A program made the position numbers and the translations under genes. Shown here piece by piece: positions 8,470 through 57,866 of a stretch of 64,000 nt of DNA. Origin of the DNA: Pseudoxanthomonas sp. SE1. GTDB lineage: Bacteria > Pseudomonadota > Gammaproteobacteria > Xanthomonadales > Xanthomonadaceae. How positions within the stretch are numbered: the stretch's first letter is position 1; each line of letters begins with the position of its first letter. The DNA is taken from the NCBI RefSeq assembly GCF_029542205.1, contig NZ_CP113783.1:3897001-3961000 (forward strand). The letters are read 5' to 3'. The notes beneath the pieces were generated by a model that saw nothing but the letters and a program-made list of their open reading frames with translations, was not told where the DNA came from and did not search any database.

Positions 8470-9204
8470 TCAGTTGGGGCTGGCCGCCGGGCGCACGATG
8501 ATCTCGCTGACGTCCACATCGTCGGGCTGCTCCACCGCGTAGGCGATGGCGCGTGCGATGGCTTCGGCGGGAATCGCGACCTGGCGGAAGTCCTCGATCC
8601 ACATCTTGATGCCGGGATCGCTGATGGTTTCGGCCAGCTCGCTGGTGGTCACGCCCGGCGACACCACCGTGACGCGCAGGTTGTCGTGTTCCTGTCGCAG
8701 GCCTTCGGACAGCGCGATCACGGCGTGCTTGGTGGCGCAGTAAACCGAGGCGCTGGGCCATACGCGGTGGCCTGCCGTGGAGGCGATGTTGATGATCTGT
8801 CCGCCGCCCTGCGTCTGCATCACCGGCAGCGCCGCCGCGATGCCGTGCAGCACGCCGCGGAGGTTGACGTCGATCATCTGGTTCCATTCGTCGATCTTCA
8901 GCGCGGCCAGCGGCGACAGCGGCATGACGCCGGCATTGTTGACGATCACGTCGAGGCGGCCGAATTCCGCCGTGGCGAATTCGACGAACGCCTCCATGTC
9001 GTCCAGGCGGGTGACGTCGAGCGCACGCTGGCGGGCGGTGCCGCCAGCCCCTTCTATCTCTGCGACCAGCTGTTCGAGCCTGCCGTTACGGCGCGCGCCG
9101 AGCACGACGCGGGCGCCACGGCGCGCGAGTTCACGTGCGGCGGCTTCGCCGATGCCGCTGCTGGCACCGGTGATGGCGATGACTTTTCCTTCGATTCCGG
9201 ACAT
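8470..9204 (-). CDS. Short-chain dehydrogenase/reductase (SDR)
   Basis: 244-residue classical SDR, probably NADP(H)-dependent. Cofactor motif GASSGIGEAAA begins near residue 12; the basic residues in GARRNGRLEQL favour NADP. NNAG-type motif is IVNNAGVMPL, the catalytic Ser is in IINIASTAG, and the Tyr/Lys pair is in SVYCATKHAV. The start at 9204 (MSGIEGKVIAITGASSG) is used rather than the longer open frame, which reads through non-coding sequence. The pattern resembles the YdfG / clavaldehyde-dehydrogenase-like SDRs; substrate unknown. Confidence 0.9.
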   Translation of the reverse strand: MSGIEGKVIAITGASSGIGEAAARELARRGARVVLGARRNGRLEQLVAEIEGAGGTARQRALDVTRLDDMEAFVEFATAEFGRLDVIVNNAGVMPLSPLAALKIDEWNQMIDVNLRGVLHGIAAALPVMQTQGGGQIINIASTAGHRVWPSASVYCATKHAVIALSEGLRQEHDNLRVTVVSPGVTTSELAETISDPGIKMWIEDFRQVAIPAEAIARAIAYAVEQPDDVDVSEIIVRPAASPN

Positions 9205-9551
9205 GGGACACCTCGTTGGGGGAAGCCCGGCGCGGGGGTTCGCCGGGAAGGGGCGCAGTGGGCAGAAGGACATAGTTTGTAGTCGGCCCAACATCAAAGC
9301 CGGTGCGACAAAGGTCAATTCTTGGAACCCAGGGCCGTCTTTGACTAGCAAAGTCGGTGATAGTTTGCCGGCGTACGCCATCCACCTTTGGTATGGCAAA
9401 CGTTACAGGTGCTAAGTTGAGCATTGTCCACGACAGAGACAACCATTTTCTGGAAAGGTCAATGCGCTAGAGGAGCGCGTAACATCCGCCTCTAATGACG
9501 CATCCTTGAAACGAGCCAGCTGCTAGTTTTGAAGTCCGACAGGCGCGTGAA
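9205..9551. other. Intergenic region, probable left end of the Tn7-like element
   Basis: No convincing gene. Base composition changes from host-like GC-rich to about even GC near 9270. The region holds repeated short motifs: AAAGGTCAAT at 9310 and 9454; TGCTAAGTTGA at 9410; TGCTAGTTTTGA near 9530; an inverted TGCTAGT near 9341; and three sites ending CGACA near 9309, 9435 and 9541. Such clusters are what TnsB-type binding sites look like, but an exact end and target duplication could not be fixed. Confidence 0.4.
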
Positions 9552-9943: not shown

Positions 9944-11269
9944 TTAGCCGGACAGCCATGCCGTGCTTTGGGCAACATGCCGAGAGTCCCCTATGTGCCA
10001 CTTGGAACGTAGTCTATAGGCCTCAAGTCGCAGCGCCTCACGCACTACTGAGTCCGCCGTAACCGGGTCTAGTCCGCGGCTTCCAAGGCTGCAGAGAATG
10101 GGAGGCATGGTCGTTCGCCAGGTTGGCTTATCTCTCTTTTGATCGATGCCGGCTAAGGCAACTCTAAATGCATTTCGCAAGCGCCACTGATGAGCAGCAC
10201 CACCCCGAGACCTAGATAGAGCGACGTAACTTGCGTAAGCCATAGGATCGGCTTCAATCATCATCTCACTGCGAATCGCAAAAAATGTCGAAATGACGCC
10301 CGGGGGAGGGATAACTGGGGGCTCCCTTCGTAGAACGGAGGCGATATAGCGGACAGCCGAAAGTACCCGTGGAGAAAAGAGGCGCTTTGAAGGAGGGAGC
10401 CATTTGAACGCGCGTTCTGGGTCTATGAGTGGCGTAGACCCGAAAGCAGGATCCAGCAACATTTCACGTATGTCTATTCCTTGAAATGCAGCAAGCGACA
10501 CTAACGTGTTGATCGTCGGTCTGTAGATCACGCCACGTCGAGAGTTATTGGCGAGCCATCTCAGGCCATGAGTCTTGCGGCCGTCGAGGCCGTCAGATAT
10601 GCCTCGGATCAGATCAACGTAGTTGTTCCACTGCACCGGCTCCGGAAGATTGCTTGAGCAGAGTGCTATCAAGCTAGCGCACTGACGCTCCTGCCACCGC
10701 TCGTGAGCGTCGACCTCCTCCGCTGGCGCACGGTACCCAAGTGCTGCGCGACACTTCCAGCAGGAGAGCCTCTTCCCAAGGGCTGACGCGGCAGGCTGCG
10801 AGGACTTGCAACTCGGACACTTCTCCACAAGTAGACAGCCATGCCAGCGGCATCGCAGCTGCAGTCCAAGTGACCATATGAGGGGCTCGTATGAAGAATC
10901 CTCGCTCCATTCGAAGAAGCAAGTTGGACACCACCGACGACGATTTGAGTCCCACCCGATCGCACGAATAGCGAGTACATTCTTCAAAGCCCAGAACGAG
11001 CCGCACTTCAGATACTCACTCGCACCGAGACGTTGCAATCCTTCAAGGCGATCTACGAATTCCAGAGACTGCCCACATACTGATGCATTGGAGACAATTC
11101 TGACATTTGATGCGTTCTTACAGGAGGCGCGAAGTATCGATGCGGCGCTAGTGTTGCACGCGGCCGCTAACCTTTGGACGTAGTATAGAGCGGACTCTAC
11201 GTCGGGTTGCCCAACTCCTCTAAGTTCTAGCGGAGGAAGTGGGCACCAGAAACTCGCTCCGGCGTTCAT
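9944..11269 (-). CDS. tniQ: TniQ-family target-selection protein
   Basis: 441-residue TniQ/TnsD-like protein that in this family links the transposition ATPase to a target site. The N-terminus has the TniQ-type PLPPLELRG..ESALYYVQRLAAACN segment. Zinc-ribbon motifs follow: CGSFWALKN, then CPTCFFEW, LQLRCRWHGCLLVEKCPSC and LSCWKCRAAL. A TTG at 11281 also opens the frame, but ATG 11269 fits the family start better. The gene begins 16 bp after the end of tnsC and is the last of the operon. The C-terminal part (about residues 200-441) resembles nothing I recognise and probably contacts the attachment site. Confidence 0.8.
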   Translation of the reverse strand: MNAGASFWCPLPPLELRGVGQPDVESALYYVQRLAAACNTSAASILRASCKNASNVRIVSNASVCGQSLEFVDRLEGLQRLGASEYLKCGSFWALKNVLAIRAIGWDSNRRRWCPTCFFEWSEDSSYEPLIWSLGLQLRCRWHGCLLVEKCPSCKSSQPAASALGKRLSCWKCRAALGYRAPAEEVDAHERWQERQCASLIALCSSNLPEPVQWNNYVDLIRGISDGLDGRKTHGLRWLANNSRRGVIYRPTINTLVSLAAFQGIDIREMLLDPAFGSTPLIDPERAFKWLPPSKRLFSPRVLSAVRYIASVLRREPPVIPPPGVISTFFAIRSEMMIEADPMAYASYVALSRSRGGAAHQWRLRNAFRVALAGIDQKRDKPTWRTTMPPILCSLGSRGLDPVTADSVVREALRLEAYRLRSKWHIGDSRHVAQSTAWLSG

Positions 11270-11285
11270 TCTCGACGGCAACTGC

Positions 11286-12302
11286 TCATGGATCTACCGT
11301 TTCCTGAGCGATCTTCCATCGGGCACGAACGAGTGATGATCGTTCCTTCACGCTTCCAGCTTTCATCACTCGCTCAAACTCGTTCACATCTCGCCAAAGC
11401 GAACTCAAATCCGAATCGTTGTAGTACGACAAGCTCAAGTGTCGCCTCAGAAGCTTGGGCGCACCTTCATCTATAGCCCTCTTGGTTGCACGGTCGACCA
11501 GCTGCAAAACTTCACCAACCACACCTGCCGTCGCAGCAAGGATCTCCGGCGCCATGTTGATAAGAATGGCGTCACAGATCAAGGGCGACCTGGCTCCCAC
11601 GGTCTTCAGAAACCGGGAGAATGAAACTCGATCTTCAGCTCGCTTGTCACTGTAGGGAGGAACCCAAATCACGCTTACGCGACGACGTAGTTCCGAGTGG
11701 ATATCCCAAAGTCGAGCTGCTTGATACACGCCCGTCATGATGAACATCAAGCCTGTAGATTCTCCCAGAGACATGAGGTGCAGCGTATGGTCTGCCGGAG
11801 AGGTATCTCGGTGATTCACCAGAAGTGCGGTCACTTGATCAATGGAGACGTAGCGGCATCCGCGAGCACCTGAACCAGCTCGGAAAGCTTGCCACGTCTC
11901 CGCCTCGGTGACTCGCTTGCGTGGAACTGCATGCCAAATCGCTTTGCATTCGGCTAGCTCGCTACGCAACACCGAACACTCTTTCGCCGCGAAAGATCCC
12001 GAATCAAGTAGCCATTCCATACTTGGCGCATTCAGCTCGTCAACCAAGTTGTTCGCCAGATCTCGAGAACTAAAGTAGGCCCGGCTCGGCATCGTTGCAA
12101 AAACTTCGACAAGTGGCGTGCGACCTCTCCCCCAGTAGTGTGGATTACCGAACATCTCGCGTAGAGTCGATCGGCGGATCGTCGTCTTTCCCACGCCAGA
12201 TGGCCCAATGATGAAGACCATGTGTCCTGAGCGGTGAAGTTCTAACTCACGCCGTAACTGCACTCTCGCAATCTTGTAGATAGGATGCTGAATCATCTTC
12301 AT
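11286..12302 (-). CDS. tnsC: Transposition AAA+ ATPase, TnsC/TniB type
   Basis: 338-residue AAA+ ATPase that, in Tn7 and Tn5053-type elements, assembles on DNA and couples TniQ to the transposase. Walker A is GPSGVGKTTI near residue 33. The Walker B strand reads RYVSIDQVTALL near residue 150, with DQ instead of the usual DE. A sensor-like strand GLMFIMTGVYQAARLWD and an arginine-rich LRRRVSVIWVPPY follow. The start codon overlaps the tnsAB stop by one base (TAATG), which indicates translational coupling. Confidence 0.85.
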   Translation of the reverse strand: MKMIQHPIYKIARVQLRRELELHRSGHMVFIIGPSGVGKTTIRRSTLREMFGNPHYWGRGRTPLVEVFATMPSRAYFSSRDLANNLVDELNAPSMEWLLDSGSFAAKECSVLRSELAECKAIWHAVPRKRVTEAETWQAFRAGSGARGCRYVSIDQVTALLVNHRDTSPADHTLHLMSLGESTGLMFIMTGVYQAARLWDIHSELRRRVSVIWVPPYSDKRAEDRVSFSRFLKTVGARSPLICDAILINMAPEILAATAGVVGEVLQLVDRATKRAIDEGAPKLLRRHLSLSYYNDSDLSSLWRDVNEFERVMKAGSVKERSSLVRARWKIAQETVDP

Positions 12303-14713
12303 TAGAAATCCTCCCCCTCTTCGAAAGGGAGAACATCTGTGACGTCCAGGCCTCGCCCTGATTGCGTCTCCTCATGACCCGGGTCGGCGACCAACTGCTC
12401 TGGCCCCAAGTGTTGGGTTGAAGGTAAGGCAGCGATTGCGAGCTGATGTCGAGAGTAGCGCTTTTTCGCGAGATCTCGCTTCTTTAATCGAGCCTCTCGA
12501 TGTACTTCCGGCCTAGACAGAAGCTCAAACAATTTTTCACTCGGGGATAGGTGCGCCTTCTCTATAACACTGGCATGGAACACCTTTACCCAAGCTCTAT
12601 TCAGTTTGGCGTATGCGACTGTCGGGTCACACACGTCCGCACGCACCTCCGAGACGCAATCAAGCTTCAATCCATCGATTAGCTCGCGGCTTGTGTATCG
12701 TGCCTCTCCAATCCGAATTCCTCGGCGTCTGTCACAAGCCCAGGTACGGGGCTTTATGGATGTCTGTATGAGAATGTCGTCACCCCATAGACAATCTATT
12801 CCTCCGTGACCCGAATTCTTGAGGAGCTCCTCCCGCATCTCTCGTGGCGATCTTCCTCCCACACGTGGGGTATTGGGGAGATCCTCGTACACGTATGTGC
12901 TGAACTCCTCCAGTACTTCGGCGAAGCTCATGCGCGCGTGATGGATGCTCTTGAAGCGTCCATCGACCTTTCTCCCCAACTGATCATTCCACTTGCTGCC
13001 AGGCAGGGCATGCGCAACGCACGAATTGATCTGCTTAATAGTGTTTTCTGCAACCCCATTCCAAGCACTCCCAGCGGTTGGTGAATGCCTCAATGAGATC
13101 CTCATATCGCAGAACGACTTCAACCAATCGGAAGTGTTCTCTGCCCCGCGGTCCACATGTATCGTGCGTGGAAGGAAGCCATGCCTACGTACGTGCTCCC
13201 TGATCAACAGAGCTAGTCCATCGGTTCGCGCGGATCCGTAGATTACGGCGTGCGCCATCGAGTCATGGGTTGCGCCGTCGATTCCAATGTAGAAGACGCC
13301 GCTGGTTGCTGGGAAATGGTTTATTAAATCTGGCGCAAACGTTATATCAAATGGCGATGAGTCGATGTACAGCACCTGCCCATAGCGCATTGGTGATTGA
13401 CTTCGATATCTTGGATCTGTGCTCGACCTAACCTGATGAAAGGATCGCATTCCGCCGGTGGCGAGTGCGCGAGATTCAGGGTTCTGCATGCGGCGTATCG
13501 CGTGGAGGCGCGAGTAACCCACGGGATCCACCTCGCGTCTGGCACACTCCTCCTCGAAGACAAACTCAAGCTCCTTAGAGTTCCTCGCTCCACCTCGGTT
13601 CCAGATTTCTATTGCCGCCTGGACTGCCTCCATTTGCTGCTTGTCGATTCTGTCGACCCGGTTCCCACTTTTCGAGTAGTTCGTAAGGCACGCCGACAAC
13701 GGCGACTTGCCAGCATCTACGGCTATTGCGACCTCTCTTATGAGTTGCCGTAGCCTCACGGTCCCCTTCGTTCTGCCAGCCTCAAAGTCTTCAATCTTCC
13801 TCAGCCTTCCCAAGGCTCTGTTCACGTCAGTAGTTGACGCTGTGAGAATTGGATCGCATACATCGGGCTGAGCGAGTGACGCAGATAGATGCGCGAGGTG
13901 CAGGGCGTCAATCTCATTGGCCTGCTCTGAAGACGCACAGAGGAGGAATCTGTCAGCCTGATCAATCGGGAGGGAAGTGATTGGTCCGTATACGAGTCGC
14001 CGCGCGAGCATCCATAGTGCAACCTCCAGTCCAAAGCTGGGAAGCGCCTTTGAGATCGACTCTATGGATGCAGGTCGCGTGGTTAGAAGTCTTTTCACCC
14101 GCCCCATAAGGCTTACGTCTGGCTGGGCGAGGTCATTGAGTGTCGCGTGTATGGCTTCAAGGTTTCTTCCGTAGATGCCGTGTGGAAATGGCGGCGTCCA
14201 GGTGCGGAACGGTAGGCCGAGAACTTCCGCCGCAGCGATGTAGGGCTCATGGAACCACTGACCCTCTCTCCAACTCCAATCGCTGCGCGGTCGCAGCGCT
14301 ACCTTCGCTAGCCACTCCTGAGTCTTGCACTCGACAAGCTCAGCGCAGTTTCCTCGAAAAACGAGGAAATCGATGTGCGCCGAGGAAATGTGACGTCTGC
14401 CCGCAATTGTGGTTCGCTCAATGTTTTGCAATGGCACTTGGACGTAGTAGCCGATCACTGTTGGATCCAACTCTAGTTCACGTGCAAATATCAGCTCGCA
14501 GGTATGGCTTTCCAAAACGCGAGCCGCACCGTTGACTCCCGAAGGGAGCGCGGTCCGGACATTAGTCAAGGCCGACTTGGCGACGTCCCGGAGTCCGCTG
14601 TTACGAATCATTTCTTCGATTAGAGCCGTGGACCTTTCTGAGAGGCCAAGGGCTGCATAGACGCACTCCCTTTCGACCATCGAAGGGCCGCCCAGTACCC
14701 TATTCACCTTCAT
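12302..14713 (-). CDS. Fused TnsA-TnsB transposase
   Basis: 803 residues from ATG 14713, which has GGGAG seven bases upstream; the frame extends to 14848. N-terminal domain (about 60-140) has the TnsA endonuclease pattern: an early ES..CE motif near 68-73, HIDF with Asp115, then VECK with Glu128 and Lys130. The central part (about 320-430) is helical and likely the TnsB DNA-binding region. The DDE integrase core has Asp451 (YIDSSPFD), Asp521 (HVDRGAEN) and Glu556 (NGVAENTIK). Both active sites are intact. TnsA normally cuts the 5' ends and TnsB the 3' ends, giving cut-and-paste rather than cointegrate transposition. Fusion of the two is known in some Tn7-like lineages. Confidence 0.85.
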   Translation of the reverse strand: MKVNRVLGGPSMVERECVYAALGLSERSTALIEEMIRNSGLRDVAKSALTNVRTALPSGVNGAARVLESHTCELIFARELELDPTVIGYYVQVPLQNIERTTIAGRRHISSAHIDFLVFRGNCAELVECKTQEWLAKVALRPRSDWSWREGQWFHEPYIAAAEVLGLPFRTWTPPFPHGIYGRNLEAIHATLNDLAQPDVSLMGRVKRLLTTRPASIESISKALPSFGLEVALWMLARRLVYGPITSLPIDQADRFLLCASSEQANEIDALHLAHLSASLAQPDVCDPILTASTTDVNRALGRLRKIEDFEAGRTKGTVRLRQLIREVAIAVDAGKSPLSACLTNYSKSGNRVDRIDKQQMEAVQAAIEIWNRGGARNSKELEFVFEEECARREVDPVGYSRLHAIRRMQNPESRALATGGMRSFHQVRSSTDPRYRSQSPMRYGQVLYIDSSPFDITFAPDLINHFPATSGVFYIGIDGATHDSMAHAVIYGSARTDGLALLIREHVRRHGFLPRTIHVDRGAENTSDWLKSFCDMRISLRHSPTAGSAWNGVAENTIKQINSCVAHALPGSKWNDQLGRKVDGRFKSIHHARMSFAEVLEEFSTYVYEDLPNTPRVGGRSPREMREELLKNSGHGGIDCLWGDDILIQTSIKPRTWACDRRRGIRIGEARYTSRELIDGLKLDCVSEVRADVCDPTVAYAKLNRAWVKVFHASVIEKAHLSPSEKLFELLSRPEVHREARLKKRDLAKKRYSRHQLAIAALPSTQHLGPEQLVADPGHEETQSGRGLDVTDVLPFEEGEDF

Positions 14714-14921: not shown

Positions 14922-15164
14922 TCACGGCGCGTGCCCTCGCACTTGCGATCGGAGATAGGCGCTCACGTCACTGGCGTGCGCGAACCAACCGCGCCGTCCG
15001 CACAACCTGAATAGGCTTACTGGAAGCCTCCCAGTTGCATGCGCGCGTCTAAGACCGGCTGGGTTGCTGAACCCTAATAGCCGTGACAAATCCTTCGCCT
15101 GCACTAGGGCTCCGTATGTCTCAGCGATCCAAGCTGTGGAGAGCGTATCGCTAGATGTTTCCAC
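14922..15164 (-). CDS. Small putative DNA-binding protein
   Basis: 80-residue protein from a GTG start. The segment ALVQAKDLSRLLGFSNPAGLRRAHATGRLP resembles a winged or AlpA/excisionase-like helix-turn-helix, followed by a wing-like GWFAHASDVSAYLRS. It may regulate the adjacent transposition operon. This is inference from pattern only. A weak hairpin AACTAA..TTAGTT followed by TTTTC lies just after its stop on the minus strand. Confidence 0.5.
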   Translation of the reverse strand: METSSDTLSTAWIAETYGALVQAKDLSRLLGFSNPAGLRRAHATGRLPVSLFRLCGRRGWFAHASDVSAYLRSQVRGHAP

Positions 15165-15267: not shown

Positions 15268-15996
15268 ATGGGTGAGCTTTACGACGCGATCTTTCGACTC
15301 TCTTCGCTGATGGAGCCTCAGAGAGGAAGGCCGGCCGGTGATGCAGTGGGACGCCTCCATAGGCGGATCATCTGGCACGCATGGGCTTTAAATGAAGGTG
15401 GCGAGGATAAGTTGGAGGCTCGCTACGTTCTGCGTAGGGAAAGCGGCGACGATCCGTTGTGCATGCGTCGAGATGAATTTGCAGCTTACAGCTCAGACTC
15501 CCGTTCTCTCTCGCCCGCTCGAATGCGTCTTGTCACACAGCGACATCCATTGGTTGGAACTATTGCAGGAATGCCATTCGCGTCTTTAAGTTTGAGACCA
15601 CGAAGCCTGGCGGAGGTGCAGTGCTGGATTGAGCCGTACATAGGGGGCTACTACGAGGTAGGTGGCGTCAAGGTTAGTGGCTTCTATAGGTTTCCGGGCG
15701 ATCCAATCGGAGGTCCCGCAGGACTGGGCCCGGCCTCGTTTGAGGACTACGAAGGATTGTGGCGCCGGGGCGACATGTACGGCTTGCTGTCTCTCGCGTG
15801 CCTGTTCCGTCTGATGCACTTGAAGAGGCAAGTGGATAGCCAATGGGTAGCCGCTTGTTACATGGCCATGGCTGTTAGAGACATGCGCAGCGACCCTTAC
15901 CTGAGTCCTTTCATAGGGGAAGTGGCCTGCGCGACTACCGCGCTACTGCGGCTACTCCCAGACTGTTCTAGGCCCATCAGAGTAAGCATGAATTGA
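15268..15996 (+). CDS. Orphan hypothetical protein next to the transposition module
   Basis: 242 residues, no recognised family. The start is well supported by GGAGG eight bases upstream. The protein is probably cytoplasmic with an Arg-rich N-terminal half (LHRRIIWHAWAL, YVLRRESGD), a central Gly-rich part (WIEPYIGGYYEVGG, FPGDPIGGPAGLGP) and a helical C-terminus (LLSLACLFRLMHL, VAACYMAMAVRDMRS). GC content is below that of the backbone. The position suggests cargo of the Tn7-like element or a cassette-type gene, but no attC borders it. Confidence 0.65.
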   Translation: MGELYDAIFRLSSLMEPQRGRPAGDAVGRLHRRIIWHAWALNEGGEDKLEARYVLRRESGDDPLCMRRDEFAAYSSDSRSLSPARMRLVTQRHPLVGTIAGMPFASLSLRPRSLAEVQCWIEPYIGGYYEVGGVKVSGFYRFPGDPIGGPAGLGPASFEDYEGLWRRGDMYGLLSLACLFRLMHLKRQVDSQWVAACYMAMAVRDMRSDPYLSPFIGEVACATTALLRLLPDCSRPIRVSMN

Positions 15997-16235
15997 AAGA
16001 AGAGAGGTTTGCGTCCCGCGCTTTGATCTACGTGCGATGCGATTAGTCGACAGGACGGGGCGCGCGCCGCTTCTTGTTCATGGCACGCTGTCGCAGTCGA
16101 TCGTAGATCAGCCTAGCCAATCTCACTAGTGCGTCAGGAGACGATAGGTGGCAACGACGCTTGCCCTGTACGAATCCCTCTCGGGAGTCGCGCCGAGCTG
16201 ACTTTAGTAGTCCGCAATCGGCCAGAAGCGGACAC
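15997..16235. other. Non-coding stretch with a GTCCGC..GCGGAC palindrome
   Basis: No supported gene. At 16210-16233 it holds one copy of the palindrome GTCCGC-N12-GCGGAC that recurs across the accessory parts of this window. A 66-codon minus frame overlaps it and is not convincing. Confidence 0.5.
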
Positions 16236-16291
16236 CCCGTCAAGATGGAGCCAGCCCGCGAGGCGGCGTCGGCTTGAATGAATTGTTAGGC
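16236..16291 (-). repeat. Integron attC site of the AbiV cassette
   Basis: Read on the minus strand it begins with the R'' box GCCTAAC, then AATTCATTCAAGCCGACGCC and the imperfect palindrome GCCTCGCGGGC, as in classical 59-base elements. The distal R' box is poorly conserved, so the far boundary is uncertain. The stop codon of the AbiV gene lies inside the GCCTAAC box. Confidence 0.8.
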
Positions 16292-16954
16292 GGCAGGCCG
16301 CGTAGCAAAGGCATAGATGGCCTCTTCAAGATCGGTATCCCCGCCCTTTATCCGCTCAAGATAAAACGCAGAAAAGTCTGGGTGCTCCATTAGTTGCTTA
16401 ACTTTGCTGGTGGATTGAGTGTAGAAGAAGTCATTGGCGACAGAGGTTGTAGGCGGCTTCTCACCAGTAAGGTGGGCCCTTGCACGATGCAAACAGTGCT
16501 GCGCAAGCCTGACCGAGTCGCGTGAGGCAACTGGTCGAACGACATCGAGAGGGGATCTTACGGTGCCGTCATGAAGTATCTCCGTGTACATGGATGGCTC
16601 CCGGCCCCGTCGTAGAGCGCCAATGAGCTCCATTGAAGCTTCAATGGCCTCCTCTAAACTATCCTTCTTGGTGAGGTACAGCGAAGGGCCGAATGCAGAG
16701 ATGATCTTGGACTTGTGATCTAGGAGCTTCTCCCGGACAGCTTTAGCTACGCGCGGGTCGTCGAGGTTTCGTCCGGCCGCATTAAATGCCAGTGCAGATT
16801 TCCCGATCTCTTCGATGCCAGCCACTGCTAGAAAGTAGGCTCTTGCAAAGTTCTCGCTCTTTAGCAGTACTTCTGCTTCACCAACTAAAGCTTCGGCGTT
16901 CTCGAGTGCCGCCCTAGATAGCGATATGAGTGTCGATTTGCTGAGCTGTCTCAT
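16286..16954 (-). CDS. AbiV family abortive-infection protein (integron cassette)
   Basis: 222-residue helical cytoplasmic protein with the AbiV pattern. N-terminal helices carry ALENAEALVGEAEVLL. The hallmark FLAVAGIEEIGKSALAF lies near residues 40-57, followed by DHKSKI near 79. AbiV in Lactococcus blocks phage replication after infection, so a phage-defence role is likely by family. The gene is packed between two attC sites, starts 5 bp after the upstream attC, and ends in TAA embedded in the GCCTAAC box, which is the usual layout of a one-gene integron cassette. No promoter of its own is evident. Confidence 0.75.
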   Translation of the reverse strand: MRQLSKSTLISLSRAALENAEALVGEAEVLLKSENFARAYFLAVAGIEEIGKSALAFNAAGRNLDDPRVAKAVREKLLDHKSKIISAFGPSLYLTKKDSLEEAIEASMELIGALRRGREPSMYTEILHDGTVRSPLDVVRPVASRDSVRLAQHCLHRARAHLTGEKPPTTSVANDFFYTQSTSKVKQLMEHPDFSAFYLERIKGGDTDLEEAIYAFATRPAA

Positions 16955-16959
16955 CTGCC

Positions 16960-17019
16960 GTCTAGCACCGGAATTGAGCCCCGCCGCGAGACGGTGTCGG
17001 CTTGAATGAGTTGTTAGGC
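16960..17019 (-). repeat. Integron attC site between cassettes
   Basis: 60 bp on the minus strand: R'' box GCCTAAC, AACTCATTCAAGCCGACACC, central palindrome GTCTCGCGGCGGGGC, CTCAATTCCGGT and R' box GCTAGAC. This is a complete short attC with both simple sites and the expected L-box region. Confidence 0.9.
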
Positions 17020-17646
17020 CTCATCTCGCCGTAGTCTCTCGATTTTTTCGTCATGAGGTGAGTAGCTACTTTTCCCCTCAAACATGCCCTCTGAAACATG
17101 TAGCTTGTAGCTAGCGATTCGCTTCCATTTGGTGTTGGGTGACGAAATTATCTCCAGATAAAGCGTCATTTCACCGTTCTCTTCGTGATCCCATCGATCT
17201 GTCTCAAGCACAACGTGGATGTCTTTCTCTGAATTTGCACCGAGCGTGAACGGATACCAGTCGCGAACAACGGCGCTGTCAAGCCACTCAAATCGCTTGC
17301 TGCCAGATCGTTGGAACTGGGAGTAAGCAACGATCCACTTTGGATAGAACGAGAATCTGCGAGATGTTCGGTGACCCTTCAGCTCACAGACGAGCCTTAC
17401 ATCCAACACTTCTCCGGGCTGTCTACCAAGATTGTAGAAGGAGAGACCCATGTCAAAGCTTGGAATCCACCAGCTCTTACCATCTTCCGAGCCAGATATC
17501 TGAGGTGTGATTCGGTAGAGACGAAAGCTAGGCGCATCATGTGAGACGCGAAGCTTGAATGGGCGCAGGCTGTTTACCCAGAGTGATAAGAAAGAAACCA
17601 CCAAGGCGAGAAGACTGATGATTATTGCGAGATGTCCGACCGTCAT
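17014..17646 (-). CDS. Membrane-anchored hypothetical protein (integron cassette)
   Basis: 210 residues with one N-terminal membrane segment (about 4-25, LAIIISLLALVVSFLSLWV) and a remaining domain rich in beta strands (FKLRVSHDAPSF, MGLSFYNLGRQPGEVLDVRL, MTLYLEIISSP). No known family. It fills one cassette: the ATG lies 15 bp after the upstream attC and the TAA stop is inside the GCCTAAC box of the downstream attC. Its topology (anchor plus a soluble beta domain) resembles other cassette-encoded proteins of unknown role. Confidence 0.75.
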   Translation of the reverse strand: MTVGHLAIIISLLALVVSFLSLWVNSLRPFKLRVSHDAPSFRLYRITPQISGSEDGKSWWIPSFDMGLSFYNLGRQPGEVLDVRLVCELKGHRTSRRFSFYPKWIVAYSQFQRSGSKRFEWLDSAVVRDWYPFTLGANSEKDIHVVLETDRWDHEENGEMTLYLEIISSPNTKWKRIASYKLHVSEGMFEGKSSYSPHDEKIERLRRDEA

Positions 17647-17660
17647 ACAGTGCCTTTGAG

Positions 17661-17720
17661 GCCTAATGCCAAGATTGAGCTGTGCCGCGAAGCGGCATCG
17701 GCTTGAATGGATTGTTATAC
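17661..17720 (-). repeat. Integron attC site between cassettes
   Basis: 60 bp on the minus strand: R'' box GTATAAC, AATCCATTCAAGCCGATGCC, the palindrome GCTTCGCGGC, ACAGCTCAATCTTGGC and R' box ATTAGGC. Architecture and spacing match the neighbouring attC at 16960-17019. Confidence 0.9.
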
Positions 17721-18384: not shown

Positions 18385-19518
18385 TCACGCCATCGCGATG
18401 TGTTTCTTGATGCTTGAAAGCAGGCGGTTGCGGTCGAAGGGTTTCACCATGAAGTCCACCGCGCCCAGCTTGATGCTCTCGACCGCCACCTCGCGCGTGC
18501 TGTTACCGGTGATCAGAATGATGGGGACCCCGGCGAGTTCGCTGTTCGCCTTCACGATCTTTATCAGCTCGATGCCATCCGTGTCGGGAAGCCCGAAATC
18601 TACCAGGATCAGATCGGGCCGCCAGCCCCTAAGCAGCAGGATGGCCTCCGACGCACTCTTGGCGTAGCTCAATCGCAATCCCGCGTCGGCCAGCAGGTGA
18701 CCGATCATGCGATGCTGGAATTCGTCGTCGTCGACCACCAGCACCTCGGGCTCTACATGCCGTGTCTGCGCGGATATGGCACGGGCATGGCCGATATGAC
18801 TTTCCAGATGCGCCTTCAGGGCCGTCACCCACGCCGCTACTTCGGCCAGGTCCCCGCACTCGCGGATCTGTGTCAGCAGCGCGCGTGCCGCGTCGTAGGA
18901 CTGGGCGGGCAGCGTGCCGGATAGCCCCTCGACGAACGCCTGCATGCCGTCGCCGGCACCGTGCAGCCTGCGCGAGACATCCCCCATTGCCCTGTCGCCA
19001 GCGGCTAAGGTGTCCAGGACGGCCTGCTCCAGTTGCGCCATGTGGCGGGCGTTGGCCGCGATGCCGGAAATGCGCGAGTTCCATGCACTCGATTCCTGGA
19101 GCGCGCGCACGGCGGCGATGACCGCCATGCCCAGCCGCCGAGGGTCGTCGCTGATCGGCCAGAAGACGACGTAATCGTCGAAGCGCTTGTCCTTGCAGAG
19201 ATGAAAGGCGCGCACGGCGTCGGCGCGCTTGCACAGAACGACCGCCTTGTGCCGCAGCGACGCCAGCTGCGCCGATGCCCGGAACAGCCCCAGGTACCAG
19301 CTCTCCGCCTCGTCGAGATCATGGAATGCCAGCACCAGCACGCTCGGCTTGATGGCTTCGGCCTGCTGGTAGGCGGCCTCGATGTTCGACGTGGCCACCT
19401 CAAGCGCGACCTGCTGCATGATCATCTCGGCCAGCAGGCGGCGGTCGGAATTCGAATCGCAGACGACCAGCACGGGGGCCGCATGGGAGCTGTCGCCGGG
19501 TTTGGAATCCACGTTCAT
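18385..19518 (-). CDS. Response regulator with pseudo-receiver and receiver domains
   Basis: 377 residues, cytoplasmic. The N-terminal domain (about 12-125) has receiver-like strands (APVLVVCDSNSDRRLLAEMI) but the strand that should carry the phospho-acceptor Asp reads VLVLAFHDLDE, so it is probably a pseudo-receiver. A helical middle (about 140-250) may be a four-helix segment. The C-terminal receiver (about 258-377) is canonical: VLVVDDDEFQHR, phospho-acceptor LVDFGLPDTDG near residue 307, the ILITGNS Thr region and the FMVKPFD Lys. There is no output domain, suggesting it relays or sequesters phosphate. It starts 5 bp after the EAL gene and is the last gene of the operon. Confidence 0.85.
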   Translation of the reverse strand: MNVDSKPGDSSHAAPVLVVCDSNSDRRLLAEMIMQQVALEVATSNIEAAYQQAEAIKPSVLVLAFHDLDEAESWYLGLFRASAQLASLRHKAVVLCKRADAVRAFHLCKDKRFDDYVVFWPISDDPRRLGMAVIAAVRALQESSAWNSRISGIAANARHMAQLEQAVLDTLAAGDRAMGDVSRRLHGAGDGMQAFVEGLSGTLPAQSYDAARALLTQIRECGDLAEVAAWVTALKAHLESHIGHARAISAQTRHVEPEVLVVDDDEFQHRMIGHLLADAGLRLSYAKSASEAILLLRGWRPDLILVDFGLPDTDGIELIKIVKANSELAGVPIILITGNSTREVAVESIKLGAVDFMVKPFDRNRLLSSIKKHIAMA

Positions 19519-19523
19519 CCGGG

Positions 19524-20750
19524 TCAGTCCCCGCGTGCCTCGCCCACGCCGCGCAGCCGCGAGGGGCCGTCCCACGCGCGCGTCCATGGAATCACTTCGT
19601 CGATGGGCAGCGCGGGCGAGAAGTAGTACCCCTGCGCCTGGGCTGCGCCCAGCTCGCGCACCAGGTGGAACTCCTCTTCCGTCTCCACGCCTTCGGCCAC
19701 CGTGGTCATGCCCAGGTCCGCGGCCAGTGCCAGGGTGGATTGCAGGATCTTGCGGCCACGCTCGTTCCTGGCCGCGCCTGCGACGAAGCTGCGGTCGATC
19801 TTGAGCTCGTCGAACGGCAGGTCGCGGAGATTGGCGAGCGAAGAGTGACCGGTGCCGAAGTCGTCGATCGACAGCGAGATCTTCCGCAGCCTCAAGCGGT
19901 TCGCGGTATCCAGCTGGGCGCTCGGCTGCACGAACGCCTCTTGTTCGGTGATTTCCAGGGTGAGGTTCTCCAGCGGCGCCTGGAAGCGCGAGGCCAGCGC
20001 AACGATGGACTCCGTAAGCCTGATGTCGGCCAGCAGTTCGGCGGTGACGTTGACGGACACCGTCCAGGGATGGCCGCGCCCCGCCCATTCGGCGAGATCG
20101 GAGATGGCGGTGATCAACACCGTGCTGGACACCTCCTTCATGTGGGCGGCATAGCGCTGCGTCGTCGCCAGATTGCCCGGCGTCAGGATCCCGTGCGTCT
20201 CGCTCCGCCAGCGCGCGAGCGCCTCGAAGCCGACGACCTCCAGGGTCCTGAGGTCGATCTTGGGCTGGTACCAGGGCTCGACGTTCTCCACCGCCACCTG
20301 GTCGAGCTCGGACTCGTACAGTTCCAGAGGCTTGCGGGTGGAAGCCGATGCGGCGGACATGCGAAGGACATCGCGCAGCGCCAGCTCCAGCTCATTGGGA
20401 TAGACCGGCTTGTGCAGCGCGGGACCTACGCACAGCCCGTGCGCCATCGCCAGCTCCCGGGCCGACCCCACGATGGCCGTCTCCTCCGCCGAGAACAGCA
20501 GCAGCCCGCCGGAATAGCCCAGCGAGGCGATGTTGCGGATGAACTCCACGCCATCCATTCCCGGCATCTGCAGGTCGCAGACCACGACGGCGACCCGGTC
20601 GTGGGTCTGGGCCAGGGACTCCAGCGCGCTGGCGGCATCGTCGTAGACACGGATCGTGTCGATGCCCTGCGCACGCAGCCCCAGGTTCCTCAGCTGCATC
20701 TCGACCACGCGAAGGGTGATGCGGTCGTCGTCGACCACCACTATCTCCAT
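19524..20750 (-). CDS. Response regulator with EAL c-di-GMP phosphodiesterase domain
   Basis: 408 residues from ATG 20750, preceded by a perfect AAGGAGG five bases upstream; a weaker ATG at 20768 overlaps the kinase gene. Domains: receiver (1-125, IVVVDDDRITLR, acceptor in CDLQMPGMDG near residue 58, KPVYPNE) and EAL (about 155-400). EAL motifs are present: FEALARW, EITEQEAF, DDFGTGHSSL, KIDRSFV, AEGVET and QGYYFSPAL. All known metal- and substrate-binding motifs look intact, so it should hydrolyse c-di-GMP when signalled by the kinase. The layout is that of RocR/PvrR-like proteins. Confidence 0.9.
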   Translation of the reverse strand: MEIVVVDDDRITLRVVEMQLRNLGLRAQGIDTIRVYDDAASALESLAQTHDRVAVVVCDLQMPGMDGVEFIRNIASLGYSGGLLLFSAEETAIVGSARELAMAHGLCVGPALHKPVYPNELELALRDVLRMSAASASTRKPLELYESELDQVAVENVEPWYQPKIDLRTLEVVGFEALARWRSETHGILTPGNLATTQRYAAHMKEVSSTVLITAISDLAEWAGRGHPWTVSVNVTAELLADIRLTESIVALASRFQAPLENLTLEITEQEAFVQPSAQLDTANRLRLRKISLSIDDFGTGHSSLANLRDLPFDELKIDRSFVAGAARNERGRKILQSTLALAADLGMTTVAEGVETEEEFHLVRELGAAQAQGYYFSPALPIDEVIPWTRAWDGPSRLRGVGEARGD

Positions 20751-20760
20751 GGGAACCTCC

Positions 20761-23700
20761 TTATCCATCGGTTTCTCCTCTCTCTTCCAATCTCTTGATC
20801 GCCTGAGTGGTTTCTTCCAGCAGCCCCACCGCTTCGCTGAGCAGCATCACCAGCACCTCCTGGCTGAGCGGACCATCGGCGACAAGGGCTGCGCGCTCCA
20901 GCTCGGAGCAGATTTCCGCGAAGGGCAAGGCGCCGACCGCGCGGGAGGACGATTTCAGCCGATGGGCGATGCCCGCGATCGTGGTGACGTCGTCCCTCAG
21001 GCTTGCGCTCTGCAGGTCGAACGTGGCCTGGCGCAGCGACTCCCCGAAGGCCGACAGGAGCTCGGCATGCACGGACTTGTCGCTGCCCACCAGTTGCTCC
21101 AGGACAGACAGGTCCAGCCTTTCGGCGCCTGCCGGGACGGCGGCCGCCGCCAGGGCGCTGTCGCTGTGGACCGAGGTCAGGCGCGTCAGGGACTCCTGCA
21201 GCGACGTCAGGGTGGTGGGCTTGACCAGGTATTCGTCCGCCTTCAGATCGACCGTGGTCGCCTCCGTACGGATGGCGTTCGCCGTCAGCACGATCACTGG
21301 GATATCGCGCTGCCGGGCATCGGCCTTGAGGCGACCGATCAGCGTGTAGCCGTCCATGTTGGGCATGTGGAGGTCGGTGATGACGACGGCATACCGCCGC
21401 TGCTCCAGAAGCGCCAGGGCTTCCAGGCCGTCCCCGGCCACATCGGCGACGTACCCGAGCAGTTCGAGCTGCCGCAGGATGACCTTCTGGTTGGTGATGT
21501 CGTCCTCGACGACGAGCACGCGCCCACGCTGCGCGGGAGCGCTGGCGGCGCTGCCTGCCGCGGGTTTGTCGGCGCCGGAGGGCGCGAGCGGCCAGTCGAA
21601 TTCGATGCCCGCACTGAGGCACACCGCAGACAGGAGGGCGCGCTGCCTCAGGATGGAGGCATCAAGCACCACGGTGCCGTCGTCTATCCGCCGCGGCGAG
21701 CGCCTGCGTCCGCGCGTGACGACGAGCCGGGCCACGCCGGCGACCCCATCCATGCAGGGCGGCAGCATCAACCAGCCCCTGGCCTTGTAGTCCGCGCCGT
21801 GCAGGAGCAGCGCATCGGGGCGGGACGCAAGCACCTTCGCCGCCAGCTCCATGCCGGGGACCTGGCTGACGTTCGCGCCCGCGTAGCGCAGGTACGAGCA
21901 GACATCGTCGGCGTCGTACACCGCGCTCTGCGTCACCAGCACCTCCAGGCCGTCCAGCCTGAGGTTCAACGAGGGCGACTGGGTCACGCCTGCGACCGGA
22001 ATGCGCGCGTAGAACGTCGATCCTACGTCCAGCTGGCTGGTGGCCCAGATGGATCCACCCATCAGGTCGACCAGCTGCTTGCAAATGGCCAGCCCCAGAC
22101 CGGTGCCGCCGAACCGGCGCGTGGTCGAGGCTTCGGCCTGGGTGAACACATGGAACAGGCGGTCCATGTTTTCCGGGGAAATGCCTATCCCGTTGTCGGC
22201 CACGGTGACCAGCAGCCAGCCGTTGTCGTCGCGGTCCTCCTCGATCGCGAACCTTACGCGCCCCCGCTTGGCGCGACTTCCGCTGAACTTGATCGCATTG
22301 CCCAGCAGGTTGAAGAAGACCTGCCTCATCCTCACCGGGTCGGCCAGCACCGTCTCGGGCAGGCCGGGGGAGATGTAGAGGTTGACGTCCACGCCTTTGG
22401 CGACCGCCTCGGCATTGAGGGTCTCGCAGACGGACTCGGCGAGGGGCTCGAGCGCCGTGGGCTGCCGCACGATCTCCAGCCGGCCGGCTTCGATCTTCGA
22501 GAAATCCAGGATGTCGTCGATCAGCCGCAGCAGGTTGGTGGCCGATTCGTGGATCGTCTTCAACGCATCGTTCTGCCGGCTGCCCAGCTCGCTTCGGGAA
22601 AGCACCTCCACCATGCCCAGCACGCCGTTCATGGGCGTGCGTATCTCATGGCTCATCGACGCCAGGAACGCGGACTTGGCCCGGCTGGCGGATTCGGCCT
22701 GCTGCTTGGCCGCCTGCAGCTCCGCCGTGCGCTGCGCGACGATCCGTTCCAGGTCTTCATTGAGCGTGCGGAGCTCGCGCTCGGCCAGCTTCTGGTCGCT
22801 GATGTCCAGGGCGACGCCCTGCATCGACCCGGCATGCTCGCCGTCGGAGGGGAACATCCTTCCGATGATCGACACCCAGCGCACGTCGCCGGTCGCGGCG
22901 GGCACCCTCACCTCCACACGGAATTCCTGCTCCTCCTGGAGGACATGCCGCAGTTGCCGGTCCTTGGCCTCCCGCTCTTCGGCGTGTATCCGCTCCAGGA
23001 ATTCCAGATAGCCGATGGAACCGGTGGGCGCCAACCCGAACATCTCGGCGCACCTGTCCGACCAGACGATCCGGCGCTGCTCCCTGTTCCAGCTCCAGGT
23101 CCCCAGGCCGGCGGCGCGGATGGCCAGGCGAAGGCTCTGTTCGCTGTTTTCCAGGGCGATCTGCGCCGCCCGGCGTGCCGTGATGTCCCGGAAGTAGACC
23201 GACAGCTCGCCCTCGTGCGGGTAGGCGCGCACTTCGAACCACGCCTGGAGCGGTTGGTAGAAAGCGACGAATTCGCGGGCCGTATCGGTCCGCACGGCTT
23301 CTTCGTACTGCGCCTGGAACTCGCTTCCCACCGCTTCCGGGAACGCATCCCAGATGTTGTAGCCCAGCAGCTTCCCCCGATGCTCGTGCAGCAGCCGTTC
23401 GGCCTGCCGGTTCACGTACCGGAAGGCGAAGTTTCGGTCCAGCTGGAAGAACGCGTCGGTGATGCTCTCCAGGGTGTTGGTCAGCCGGGCCGCCACGTTG
23501 GCCATCTGCTGCTCGGCCCGGTAGCGCGCCGAGGAATCCAGGAAGGCGCCGCGGATGTACGCCACGTTGCCCGCGGCGTCCCGCTCGGCCGTGCCCACGC
23601 AGCGCACCCAGAGGCATTCGCCGGTGGCCGAGATGATCTCGAACTCCTCGTCGATGGGCGCGCCATCGATTTCGCACGAAGCGAAGGCTTCGATCAGGTG

Positions 23701-24321
23701 GTTGCGCCATTCGGGGGCGATGAACTGCACCGCCTGCTCCGGCGTCGGGTGGGTGCCCTCGGGCATGCCATGGATTTCGGCCACCTGGCCCGACCAGGTG
23801 ATCTGGCGTTCGCGCACGTCGTACTGCCACCCGCCGAACCGGACCATCCGGCTGGCGAAGCGCGCCAGGGCGGACACCTCATCGGCCTGTCTCTGCGCCA
23901 GCTTCTGCGCCGTGATGTCTTCGTGCACGACCAGCACGTGCGGTGCCGCCGTGCCCGCGCTGGACGTGAAGCAGGACGCGCGCGCGACGAACCAGCGTGG
24001 CCGGTCGGGGGCATCGCAGGGATATTCCAGCTGAAAGCCGCCCGATCCGGCCTGCACCACCTCGGCGAACAGCTCGACGAACTTGCGCGCGTAGGGGTCG
24101 TCGCAGGCCGCGGCGCGCTTGCAGACGAGCAGGTAGTTGGCACCCTCGGCAACGGCGCCCGGATCGATGCCTGCGCTGTGCGAGGCCTGCTTCCACGCTT
24201 CATTGGTGAACAGCAAGGTGCCGGACTCGCCCACGATGCAGGCCGGGTGGGGCAAAGCGTCCAGCGCCGCGCGTGCCAGATCCTGGTGCAGTGCCATGAG
24301 TGATGTCGCCGCCGCGTCCAT
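20761..24321 (-). CDS. Soluble hybrid histidine kinase (PAS-HisKA-HATPase-REC-Hpt)
   Basis: 1186 residues without clear membrane segments. About four PAS/PAC units fill residues 10-530 (for example NEAWKQAS, GGWQYDVRERQITW, FRYVNRQAERLLHEH, IVWSDRCAEMFGL). A coiled linker leads to HisKA (His in SHEIRTPMNG near 557), then HATPase (NAIKFSG near 677, GGTGLGLAICKQL near 742). A degenerate receiver (VLVTQSAVYD near 794) precedes a canonical receiver (acceptor in VVITDLHMPNMDG near 982) and an Hpt domain (IAHRLKSSSRAVG near 1119). It is a phosphorelay hub for internal or redox signals. It heads an operon with the EAL and receiver proteins, overlapping the former's longest start. Confidence 0.93.
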   Translation of the reverse strand: MDAAATSLMALHQDLARAALDALPHPACIVGESGTLLFTNEAWKQASHSAGIDPGAVAEGANYLLVCKRAAACDDPYARKFVELFAEVVQAGSGGFQLEYPCDAPDRPRWFVARASCFTSSAGTAAPHVLVVHEDITAQKLAQRQADEVSALARFASRMVRFGGWQYDVRERQITWSGQVAEIHGMPEGTHPTPEQAVQFIAPEWRNHLIEAFASCEIDGAPIDEEFEIISATGECLWVRCVGTAERDAAGNVAYIRGAFLDSSARYRAEQQMANVAARLTNTLESITDAFFQLDRNFAFRYVNRQAERLLHEHRGKLLGYNIWDAFPEAVGSEFQAQYEEAVRTDTAREFVAFYQPLQAWFEVRAYPHEGELSVYFRDITARRAAQIALENSEQSLRLAIRAAGLGTWSWNREQRRIVWSDRCAEMFGLAPTGSIGYLEFLERIHAEEREAKDRQLRHVLQEEQEFRVEVRVPAATGDVRWVSIIGRMFPSDGEHAGSMQGVALDISDQKLAERELRTLNEDLERIVAQRTAELQAAKQQAESASRAKSAFLASMSHEIRTPMNGVLGMVEVLSRSELGSRQNDALKTIHESATNLLRLIDDILDFSKIEAGRLEIVRQPTALEPLAESVCETLNAEAVAKGVDVNLYISPGLPETVLADPVRMRQVFFNLLGNAIKFSGSRAKRGRVRFAIEEDRDDNGWLLVTVADNGIGISPENMDRLFHVFTQAEASTTRRFGGTGLGLAICKQLVDLMGGSIWATSQLDVGSTFYARIPVAGVTQSPSLNLRLDGLEVLVTQSAVYDADDVCSYLRYAGANVSQVPGMELAAKVLASRPDALLLHGADYKARGWLMLPPCMDGVAGVARLVVTRGRRRSPRRIDDGTVVLDASILRQRALLSAVCLSAGIEFDWPLAPSGADKPAAGSAASAPAQRGRVLVVEDDITNQKVILRQLELLGYVADVAGDGLEALALLEQRRYAVVITDLHMPNMDGYTLIGRLKADARQRDIPVIVLTANAIRTEATTVDLKADEYLVKPTTLTSLQESLTRLTSVHSDSALAAAAVPAGAERLDLSVLEQLVGSDKSVHAELLSAFGESLRQATFDLQSASLRDDVTTIAGIAHRLKSSSRAVGALPFAEICSELERAALVADGPLSQEVLVMLLSEAVGLLEETTQAIKRLEERGETDG

Positions 24322-25303: not shown

Positions 25304-25663
25304 CAGCTCTGTTGGATGGCATGCCAATGCATCGACAAGGTCTTAAGTGTCCTGTTTAAAAGGCATAGACCAGAGACTGCCTCTTGGAGTACCTGCGCGT
25401 GGCACTGGATGTCCGCTTCCGGCCAGAAGCGGACATTGCTAAATCTCTGGCAATCAGAAGTAGCTGTCTTGCATGAAGAAGCTGCGGTACTGCTTGGATC
25501 GATGAGTGGGGAAGTGCTACGCAGAGGGGAGGAGGCCTCCTCTGCGTACGGGCTGTCATCACGACAGTCTTCCGCCAAGGGTGAGGGCGGCATCAACTGG
25601 CTCGGGGAATGCCAGCGAATTAATGAGCGGCGCGCCAAGGAGACGACAGCCCGCTCGGTGAGG
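25304..25663. other. Non-coding scar region with a perfect palindrome
   Basis: No convincing gene in either direction. At 25409-25436 lies a near-perfect copy of the accessory palindrome: ATGTCCGCTTCC, GGCC, AGAAGCGGACAT. The region joins the truncated fragments on the left to the flavoprotein gene on the right. Confidence 0.55.
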
Positions 25664-35042: not shown

Positions 35043-35163
35043 GATTATCTCGGTGGTGGGTGAAGAGTCAGCCAGGTTCTCGTCGGAGCATCTTCTTCGG
35101 AACGAAAGACTCCGCTGCCAGACCCGAAGGCCCGGCATTGGCGCACGAGAAGGACGTGGACCG

Positions 35164-36033: not shown

Positions 36034-36290
36034 GGTCATCTCCATCTGGCCGGGCAAGCCGGCATTCGGGGAAGAAGTGGCGGTAGCGGCAAGGAGCGTG
36101 AGCTACCAACGGGTCGGGACAACTGAACTTTCTACGGATGCCCTACGCCGACGTGGTTGGGATGGCGCATCTACGGCAGTACTTGGCTTGAATCGAGTCT
36201 ATCCAGCGCTTTGTTTGGCATATACAAGAGCCGAACGAATTTACTGTTCAAACATCTGAACAATCGATTCGTGGCCCAGTAGCCCGAGCT

Positions 36291-43520: not shown

Positions 43521-43728
43521 AAAAAGGGCCTGAGGGAGTTGGACGGCTGGCAGTCTGTCCCTCCGCCTACCAGTCATCTAGGTCCTAAACTGGCTATCTT
43601 TATTGCTTGAAATGGAATAAATGATGCGAGACCAGCCCGGAAAGTGCTGGTATATATGTCCCTGCCGGGACAAGCTTTGAAGTCTTATTGCTGTTCAGGC
43701 AACAAAATTCCGCCGGAGGACACGACCT
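43521..43728. promoter_or_regulatory. Divergent promoter region of the efflux operon and its LysR gene
   Basis: 208 bp between the adaptor and LysR genes. Dyads at 43631-43651 (ACCAGC-N9-GCTGGT) and 43658-43671 (GTCCC-TGCC-GGGAC) are candidate LysR-type sites. A GGAGG at about 43715 serves the LysR GTG start. Confidence 0.55.
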
Positions 43729-57712: not shown

Positions 57713-57823
57713 GCACGCGCGGGAGGACCCGAAGCCCCGACACGCACGCCACCCGACACGATGAAGCATGTCCGGCACGCGCCGCATCGATGGGCAGAGC
57801 TCACCGGCGCCCACGTTTCTGCG

Positions 57824-57846: not shown

Positions 57847-57866
57847 ACGGGTATCCTAGCGGCCTG

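Follow-up and report, generated by a model that had tools for sequence, protein, structure and literature searches.

A CRISPR-free, fused-TnsAB Tn7-like transposon of Pseudoxanthomonas, probably homing to host control regions

The selector of Tn7, TnsD, binds from +23 to +58 according to the relevant portion of PMC2918618, the count starting at the middle of the target duplication. Among the CRISPR-associated transposons (CAST), types I-B2 and I-D are placed, in a part of PMC11406308, in a TnsAB-fused subfamily with varied TniQ partners, and for loci with two TniQ/TnsD proteins an excerpt of PMC10293859 holds that the protein above 400 aa probably selects targets directly. Here we consider a relative of these systems in Pseudoxanthomonas sp. 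SE1, in the 64,000-nucleotide stretch that we call the window (3,897,001-3,961,000 of the 4.23-Mb single-contig genome). The element spans 9259-53405 of the window (44,147 bp), and we think it highly probable that it is a chromosomal fused-TnsAB Tn7-like transposon, guided to the control regions of host genes by a TnsD-like TniQ. The comparison with its relatives gives a precise insertion, two recognisable ends, a shared end architecture and, across the family, a rule by which the right end stands at a nearly fixed distance upstream of a conserved control region of a host gene. The features on which this depends are as follows.

8470-9204, minus strand: short-chain dehydrogenase (SDR) gene of the host flank (Pfam, scanned from a longer mechanical start)
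9255-9258: left copy of the target site, GCAG, from which the right copy differs at 1 of 4 positions
9259-9305, plus strand: left end (L), terminus 5'-TG, placed by the empty sites and the sole top-scoring L candidate of the window
9269-9281: L site 1, GACATAGTTTGTA
9293-9305: L site 2, ATCAAAGCCGGTG
53339-53405, plus strand: right end (R), with direct sites at 53339-53351 and 53363-53375, an inverted terminal site at 53383-53395 and terminus CA at 53405
53406-53409: right copy of the target site, CCAG
53432-53470: conserved intergenic block, TCGATATCCGGTTCCTCCGCGATCCTTGCCTGATCCTGC, at +26 to +64 from the R terminus; the presumed TniQ site, by its position
53556-54464, plus strand: target gene in the host flank, an AraC-type regulator (Pfam AraC_N and HTH_18, scanned from codon 2)

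The boundary is best appreciated from genomes that lack the element. When the left flank was searched for in 38 genomes of the genus, 17 loci in 17 genomes were recovered with the site intact, and in all 17 alignments (with the letters compared for 14) the sequence up to window position 9259 continues directly with that from 53407 onward. An earlier reading of this DNA from its letters alone, hereafter the original prediction, had made just such a precise boundary against related strains its test, and the empty sites supply it. The G+C content is 60% inside the island and 68% in the flanks, and the SDR gene is now split by the element from the AraC-side control region. A site-specific recombinase island was considered and rejected, since the scanned open reading frames (ORFs) include no tyrosine or serine integrase family and the boundary carries transposon ends.

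These ends are of a kind found repeatedly in the order Lysobacterales (Xanthomonadales). A repeated end site, with the consensus ACCATAGTTTGTG, emerged first from junctions in Dyella, Frateuria and Tahibacter elements. At the R end, a copy of this site is followed 20-21 bp on by an inverted copy, and the terminus lies 12 nt past CTATG; the inverted pair is present in 25 elements, that of the window and 24 relatives, drawn from 13 regions, 7 hits of a pattern search, G271 and 4 held-out genomes (G numbers are our labels for genomes). The R terminus is CA in 21 of the 25, CG in G348 and TA in G353, G397 and G402, and an outer direct copy stands about 25 bp further in at 17 of them, the window included, with the inverted pair alone in G346, G340, G234, G107, G372, G402, G271 and G618. 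The L end starts with TG, its first site 10 nt in and the second 24-26 bp later. The element thus has the asymmetric ends, with arrays of predicted transposase-type sites, of a Tn7-like transposon. Scores of the R ends run from 26.7 to 66.3 under a model trained on 20 of the 25, against at most 9.9 in 12 one-strand shuffles of four regions; the window, itself in the training set, scores 62.1. In the pattern search, 13 of 395 family genomes matched and the reversed control matched none; 9 of these genomes were used, G013, G089, G136 and G151 being set aside as doubtful in end type or orientation. Because the R pair is palindromic the reverse strand also scores, and orientation was therefore set by the outer copy and the terminal CA. 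For the window, a boundary with perfect CAGT/CAGT copies (4/4) and termini GGG...CAC is kept only as an alternative, since it fits neither the 12-nt spacing nor the TG...CA rule of most relatives.

A site model built on the earlier ends was then applied to seven further TnsAB genomes, taken from an order-wide TnsAB search and held out of the model. An R end in the expected orientation was found in four (G610, G569, G662 and G618), three of which have an exact 4-bp repeat, the fourth having no L side in the stretch; G613 and G579 gave no R end and G643 was ambiguous. All counts given here leave out the second tnsAB of G343 and of G234, the weaker TnsAB matches (G005, G007, G013, G020, G021, G022, G036, G038, G048 and G056) and the additional R ends that tandem elements contribute in G348 and G569, and it should be borne in mind that G342 and G343 may represent one insertion event.

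The position of the R end relative to host genes is what suggests a target rule. A list of the flanking ORFs of all 25 elements shows that in 24 a gene lies with its 5' side toward the R end and is read away from it, G618 being the remaining one. The genes are ntrB-like in eight cases, an outer-membrane beta-barrel gene in five, frmR-like in four (with a frmA-like gene next) and padR-like in three, with single cases of an AraC-type gene (the window), a gntR-like gene, a LysM protein and an efflux adaptor protein. The window AraC, one FrmR (Trns_repr_metal) and one outer-membrane protein were checked with Pfam; the other names (ntrB, padR, gntR and so on) are those we take the sequences to indicate, and that the blocks resemble NtrC and FrmR operators is likewise our presumption. 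Measured from the R terminus, a TGCAC half-site lies at +39 to +42 in the eight ntrB flanks, ATACT at +36 to +39 in the four frmR flanks, a CAGTT block at +48 to +52 in the five outer-membrane gene flanks, and blocks at +19 to +20 and +38 to +39 in the three padR flanks. Gapped alignments within classes give an identity of 0.21-0.29 for the 16 bp nearest the terminus and of 0.64-0.85 at +40 to +56. For the family, then, insertion is orientation-specific and at a fixed distance from a conserved site; for example, G016 and G027, which are different species, are inserted at equal distance from the same frmR block. In the window, the +26 to +64 block is largely conserved in all 17 empty sites (2-7 mismatches within one 30-bp stretch). 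What appears to be new here is this target rule, namely host 5' control regions with the R end toward the gene, of which the window is one case, and it is in keeping with the suggestion of the original prediction that the TniQ may specify a new attachment site, which both the insertion point and the relatives support.

Several further observations concern these sites. G348 carries extra R ends at its ntrB site (contig C19, about 48.5-51 kb) and G569 at its padR site (contig C2, about 87.9 kb), with the L end of another element following within a few bases, and such tandem R ends would fit repeated homing. At G618 (C8, 1645652; L209) and G089 (C1, 681525; L180), R-type ends have flanks that look tRNA-like by eye, possibly a tRNA fragment. 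A link to tRNA homing through these two was nevertheless rejected, as ARAGORN found no tRNA in L209 or L180 and G089 has no TnsAB match at 1e-60; there are no tRNA genes in the window. In a tree of TniQ proteins, 8 of 22 inner branches are strongly supported, and ntrB targets occur in several places of what is a weak tree.

The second apparent novelty is the length of the target duplication. A first scan used the repeat as a criterion; the later rankings did not, and L candidates of all 25 elements were ordered by site match and TG alone. Twelve of the 25 elements then have an exact 4-bp repeat at the candidate ranked first, alone or tied (chance being about 1 in 256 per candidate), and none has an exact 5-bp repeat there. 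Nine of the twelve are sole top candidates (G352 AAAA, G348 CAGA, G343 and G342 CTTT, G027 CGGG, G028 CACA, G340 TGAG, G610 CAAG and G618 AAAG) and three are tied (G346 CCAC, 4 tied; G016 GGCC, 10 tied; G569 CCAC, 2 tied); the G569 repeat comes third under the differently scaled score of the held-out test, and G318 has its repeat, ATGG, at the rank-four candidate. Among the 14 elements with an accepted L end, the 4-bp copies are exact in 13 and match at 3 of 4 positions in the window. No L end was accepted for the other 11 (G353, G350, G349, G428, G397, G402, G372, G107, G234, G271 and G662), several of which sit at contig or stretch limits. In 11 element pairs the two one-base shifts of the terminus give no 5-bp repeat, and in G348, G346, G343, G342, G340, G027 and G028 the repeat is 4 bp, never 5 bp, under any shift tried. 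Terminal TGT/ACA with a 5-bp duplication finds no support in the pair and ranking analyses. Since 5 bp is the length described for Tn7 relatives, we regard the putative 4-bp duplication as new here and seen across the lineage, with the window's own case imperfect.

The genes that would carry out these reactions lie close to the L end.

9944-11281, minus strand: tniQ, 445 aa, predicted TnsD-like target selector (Pfam TniQ below cut-off; PDB TnsD/TniQ matches; TniQ alignment)
11286-12302, minus strand: tnsC, 338 aa, AAA ATPase (Pfam below cut-off; homology)
12302-14713, minus strand: tnsAB, 803 aa from ATG, fused TnsA endonuclease and TnsB DDE transposase
14922-15164, minus strand: helix-turn-helix (HTH)-like gene, 80 aa, upstream of tnsAB (tblastn; weak PyocinActivator match, E 0.037)
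15268-15996, plus strand: 242-aa gene, divergent from the tns module (tblastn in relatives)

The original prediction had placed three tightly coupled minus-strand tns genes at 9944-14713, where they are indeed found, and had joined a TnsA endonuclease to a TnsB transposase, and the sequence-profile alignment of the TnsA segment with the solved TnsAB 9bw1_M agrees. Pfam gives no match on TnsAB, only AAA/TniB-type matches below their cut-offs on TnsC, and the TniQ family at E 1.1e-4, again below the family cut-off, on TniQ. The TnsAB profile, by comparison, matches PDB 9bw1_M in two stretches (TnsA part, i-Evalue 4.4e-25; TnsB part, 9.7e-28), and the alignment takes in DF...ECK and the DDE region. 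The TnsA residues and DDE triad that had been picked out by eye bear inspection too, the presumed catalytic residues D160, E173 and K175 and D496, D566 and E601 being invariant in a 17-row alignment; they are numbered from the TTG at 14848 to which the mechanical ORF extends, most aligned relatives beginning near the ATG. The TniQ profile covers positions 19-369 of 445 against PDB 8v32_J, 'TnsD' (E 2.5e-31), and TniQ also matches the TniQ of PDB 8fcu_P; the C-terminal half of the protein, earlier described as not recognisable, can thus largely be recognised by profile. We take 9bw1 and 8v32 to be components of the type I-B2 (Pmc) system, their PDB labels reading just 'Integrase' and 'TnsD'. 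At 445 aa the window TniQ is the sole TniQ of its element, unlike the two-TniQ loci of the PMC10293859 survey. The tnsC gene is 26-58% identical to the tnsC adjoining tnsAB in relatives, and the 80-aa gene and the 242-aa gene have tblastn matches in 15 and 8 of 26 other regions, respectively, the former adjoining tnsAB and the latter kept in the window's clade. The 80-aa protein is probably a regulator. In the window's clade the conserved core comprises five genes. Judged by sequence, the TnsA, TnsB, TnsC and TniQ/TnsD set of Tn7-like transposons is present.

Variants of this core occur elsewhere. Stenotrophomonas sp. VV52 has a second tnsC, 51% identical to the window's, behind the first (L046, 12427-14652), and second TniQ genes lie upstream of tnsAB in L056 (1934-2854, opposite strand) and L058 (7764-8912), which suggests two-selector elements.

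How might such an element move? TniQ would act as a TnsD-type selector, its C-terminal half binding the block about 20-60 bp from the insertion point; TnsC would join it; and TnsAB would cut both element ends, cut-and-paste fashion, and join them to target strands staggered by 4 bp, the gene lying on the R side. Since a host can ill afford to lose its operators, these would serve as safe and durable docking sites, like the glmS end for Tn7. A broader idea, that a Lysobacterales (Xanthomonadales) lineage uses host operators and promoters, mostly of regulators, as attachment sites, with different TniQs each reading an NtrC-, FrmR-, PadR- or AraC-type control region and with a 4-bp rather than 5-bp stagger, we put forward tentatively, at somewhat short of even confidence.

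It is only fair to set out what weighs against this view of the element. The window's own duplication is just 3 of 4 (GCAG/CCAG), its AraC target is a single case, and its tns operon points to the L end where in 21 of 21 relatives it points toward the R end (counting those relatives in which both an R end and a full-length tnsAB could be placed; G402 has only tnsAB fragments, and G397 and G428 have none in the stretches compared), so that an inversion of at least 9.9-16 kb would have occurred in the window. The figure of 13 in 14 for accepted L ends is biased, and 12 in 25 is the fairer one, because the repeat helped in accepting some of them; moreover, if the termini are allowed to shift by up to 2 nt, a 5-bp repeat of some kind turns up in 6 of 25 elements (G352, G350, G016, G610, G569 and G618). 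In G610, G569 and G352 the left flank is tandem-like and similar to another R end, and this may account for some of these shifted repeats. Elements without the outer copy were oriented by the terminal CA alone, and G402, a tie, by its likeness to G353 and G397. Eight TnsAB regions or genomes gave no R end (G341, G347, G351 with a score of 9.0, G355, G356, G305, G613 and G579). Without gaps, the same conservation bins are weaker (0.35/0.37, 0.58/0.38 and 0.33/0.31), because the distances vary by a few bp. Lastly, that TniQ binds the blocks we infer from their position only, and the blocks may be conserved through use by host regulators.

The alternative that survives best, and which we still think unlikely, is that the window island combines a degenerate element with other islands and is not a single working transposon, its inverted tns module being a remnant that no longer moves these ends. 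The reversed operon and the 3 of 4 duplication speak for it, as do a GC fraction ranging from 0.53 to 0.68 along the island, the presence inside of two insertion sequence (IS)-type genes and integron-like cassettes, and the tandem elements known in G348 and G569. Against this, both ends are of the expected types and located at the empty-site boundary, tnsAB, tnsC and tniQ are all open, and the TniQ of a Pseudoxanthomonas japonensis record is 94% identical to the window's, which implies that the gene has been kept elsewhere. On these comparisons we read the window element as a real and complete-looking Tn7-type transposon of the fused-TnsAB branch.

Less probable again, with perhaps a slim chance of being right, is that this is an ordinary Tn7 relative of the TnsAB branch, with sites merely where conserved sequence happens to be, an eroded 5-bp duplication and targets without a common logic. 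All of its core proteins are, after all, homologous to known ones; Tn7 is known to home at a fixed distance under the direction of TnsD (from part of PMC2918618), and the fused-TnsAB branch is said, in a section of PMC11406308, to have other, unstudied, non-CRISPR targeting systems; and the shifts of up to 2 nt do permit a 5-bp repeat in 6 of 25 top candidates. The duplication data run the other way, with exact 4-bp copies at 12 of 25 top or tied candidates and exact 5-bp copies at none, no 5 bp from either one-base shift in 11 pairs and seven elements at 4 bp only under any shift, and 24 of 25 R ends stand at the 5' sides of genes, whereas Tn7 inserts past the 3' end of glmS. Finally, a CRISPR-guided transposon whose cas genes have been lost, or lie at a distance and are used for targeting, is barely credible: among PDB sequences TnsAB and TniQ match 9bw1 and 8v32 best (presumably I-B2 components), but a search confined to the element finds no cas gene in 34 ORFs and no CRISPR-like repeat, relatives that share the core occupy recurrent sites, and TniQ matches TnsD through most of its C-terminal half.

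That absence had already been remarked on for the neighbourhood of the tns genes, and it holds for the element: Pfam finds no cas families among its 34 ORFs (at E up to 0.1 for part and 0.001 for the rest), and no exact 18-mer occurs in the element in three or more copies at CRISPR-like spacing. What the element does carry is a varied cargo.

16245-17720, minus strand: integron-like cassettes, with attC-like repeats at 16245, 16973 and 17674 and AbiV at 16286-16954
18385-53016: cargo (Pfam), including a response regulator (18385-20088) and a hybrid histidine kinase (20761-24321)
Within 18385-53016: flavin oxidoreductases, LysR regulators and two IS-type transposase genes (Pfam)
37619-43577: RND efflux operon (Pfam)
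51448-53016: SEC-C protein (Pfam)

The attC-like repeats, which we take to be attC, are 47 nt long, end in GTTAGGC or GTTATAC and bound gene cassettes; no integron integrase was seen among the scanned ORFs. Palindrome-like repeats, GTCCGC...CGGCCAGAAGCGGAC, stand at 16210-16234 and 25411-25435, and 16210-16286 has a 75% match in L059, a locus of Pseudoxanthomonas sp. PXM02, at 742-819. A 361-aa protein (35041-36126), with no Pfam match at 0.001, has a relative (39% over 280 aa) inside the G348 element (57555-58391).

The distribution of TnsAB is narrow. Relatives are found in 20 of 297 family genomes at E <= 1e-3 and, at E <= 1e-60, in 14 of 398 genomes of the order, with only the window's own among 398 sampled genomes of the phylum. 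Spread on plasmids or phages was rejected on the searches made: 17 of 72,556 plasmid records gave weak partial matches, none covering 80% of TnsAB, no match appeared in 50,697 phage records, and none was confirmed in viral contigs. In the openly licensed full-text literature, searched by title and the start of the abstract, none of the matches listed reports a 4-bp duplication in Tn7 relatives, ntrB or frmR attachment sites, or such elements in Lysobacterales, which is weak evidence of novelty. The interest of the system lies in a proposed target rule for a CRISPR-free fused-TnsAB transposon, and the prediction drawn from it held reasonably well for the few genomes kept out of the model (4 of 7). 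A set of small selectors of TnsD type, about 420-470 aa long and with different, recognisable targets, would amount to a natural code by which proteins direct large DNA to positions upstream of chosen genes, and the 4-bp duplication, if true, would mean that the Tn7-type transpososome has no fixed spacing.

How, then, does the element stand beside the systems with which we began? With the type I-B2 CAST and the fused-TnsAB branch it shares the fusion of TnsA to TnsB, TnsC and a TnsD-like TniQ (homology over profile positions 19-369), and it differs from types I-B2 and I-D in having no cas genes, CRISPR array or second TniQ, in attaching at the 5' control region of a protein gene (AraC) where those attach at tRNA genes and, as against the I-B2 and fused-TnsAB branch, in the 4-bp duplication of its relatives. 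With Tn6022 (TniQ and TnsF, comM) it has in common a TnsC and TniQ core and protein-guided homing, while Tn6022, as described in a part of PMC10293859, has separate TnsA and TnsB, the extra selectors TnsF and TnsE, and insertion in comM. With Tn7 (TnsABCD, attTn7 at glmS) it shares insertion in one orientation and at a set distance from a conserved block, a TnsD-type selector, asymmetric ends with several repeated sites and a block position near TnsD's +23 to +58; yet here TnsA and TnsB are fused, the duplication in the relatives is 4 bp rather than the 5 bp of Tn7, and the target gene is transcribed away from the element, which faces its 5' side, and not toward it.

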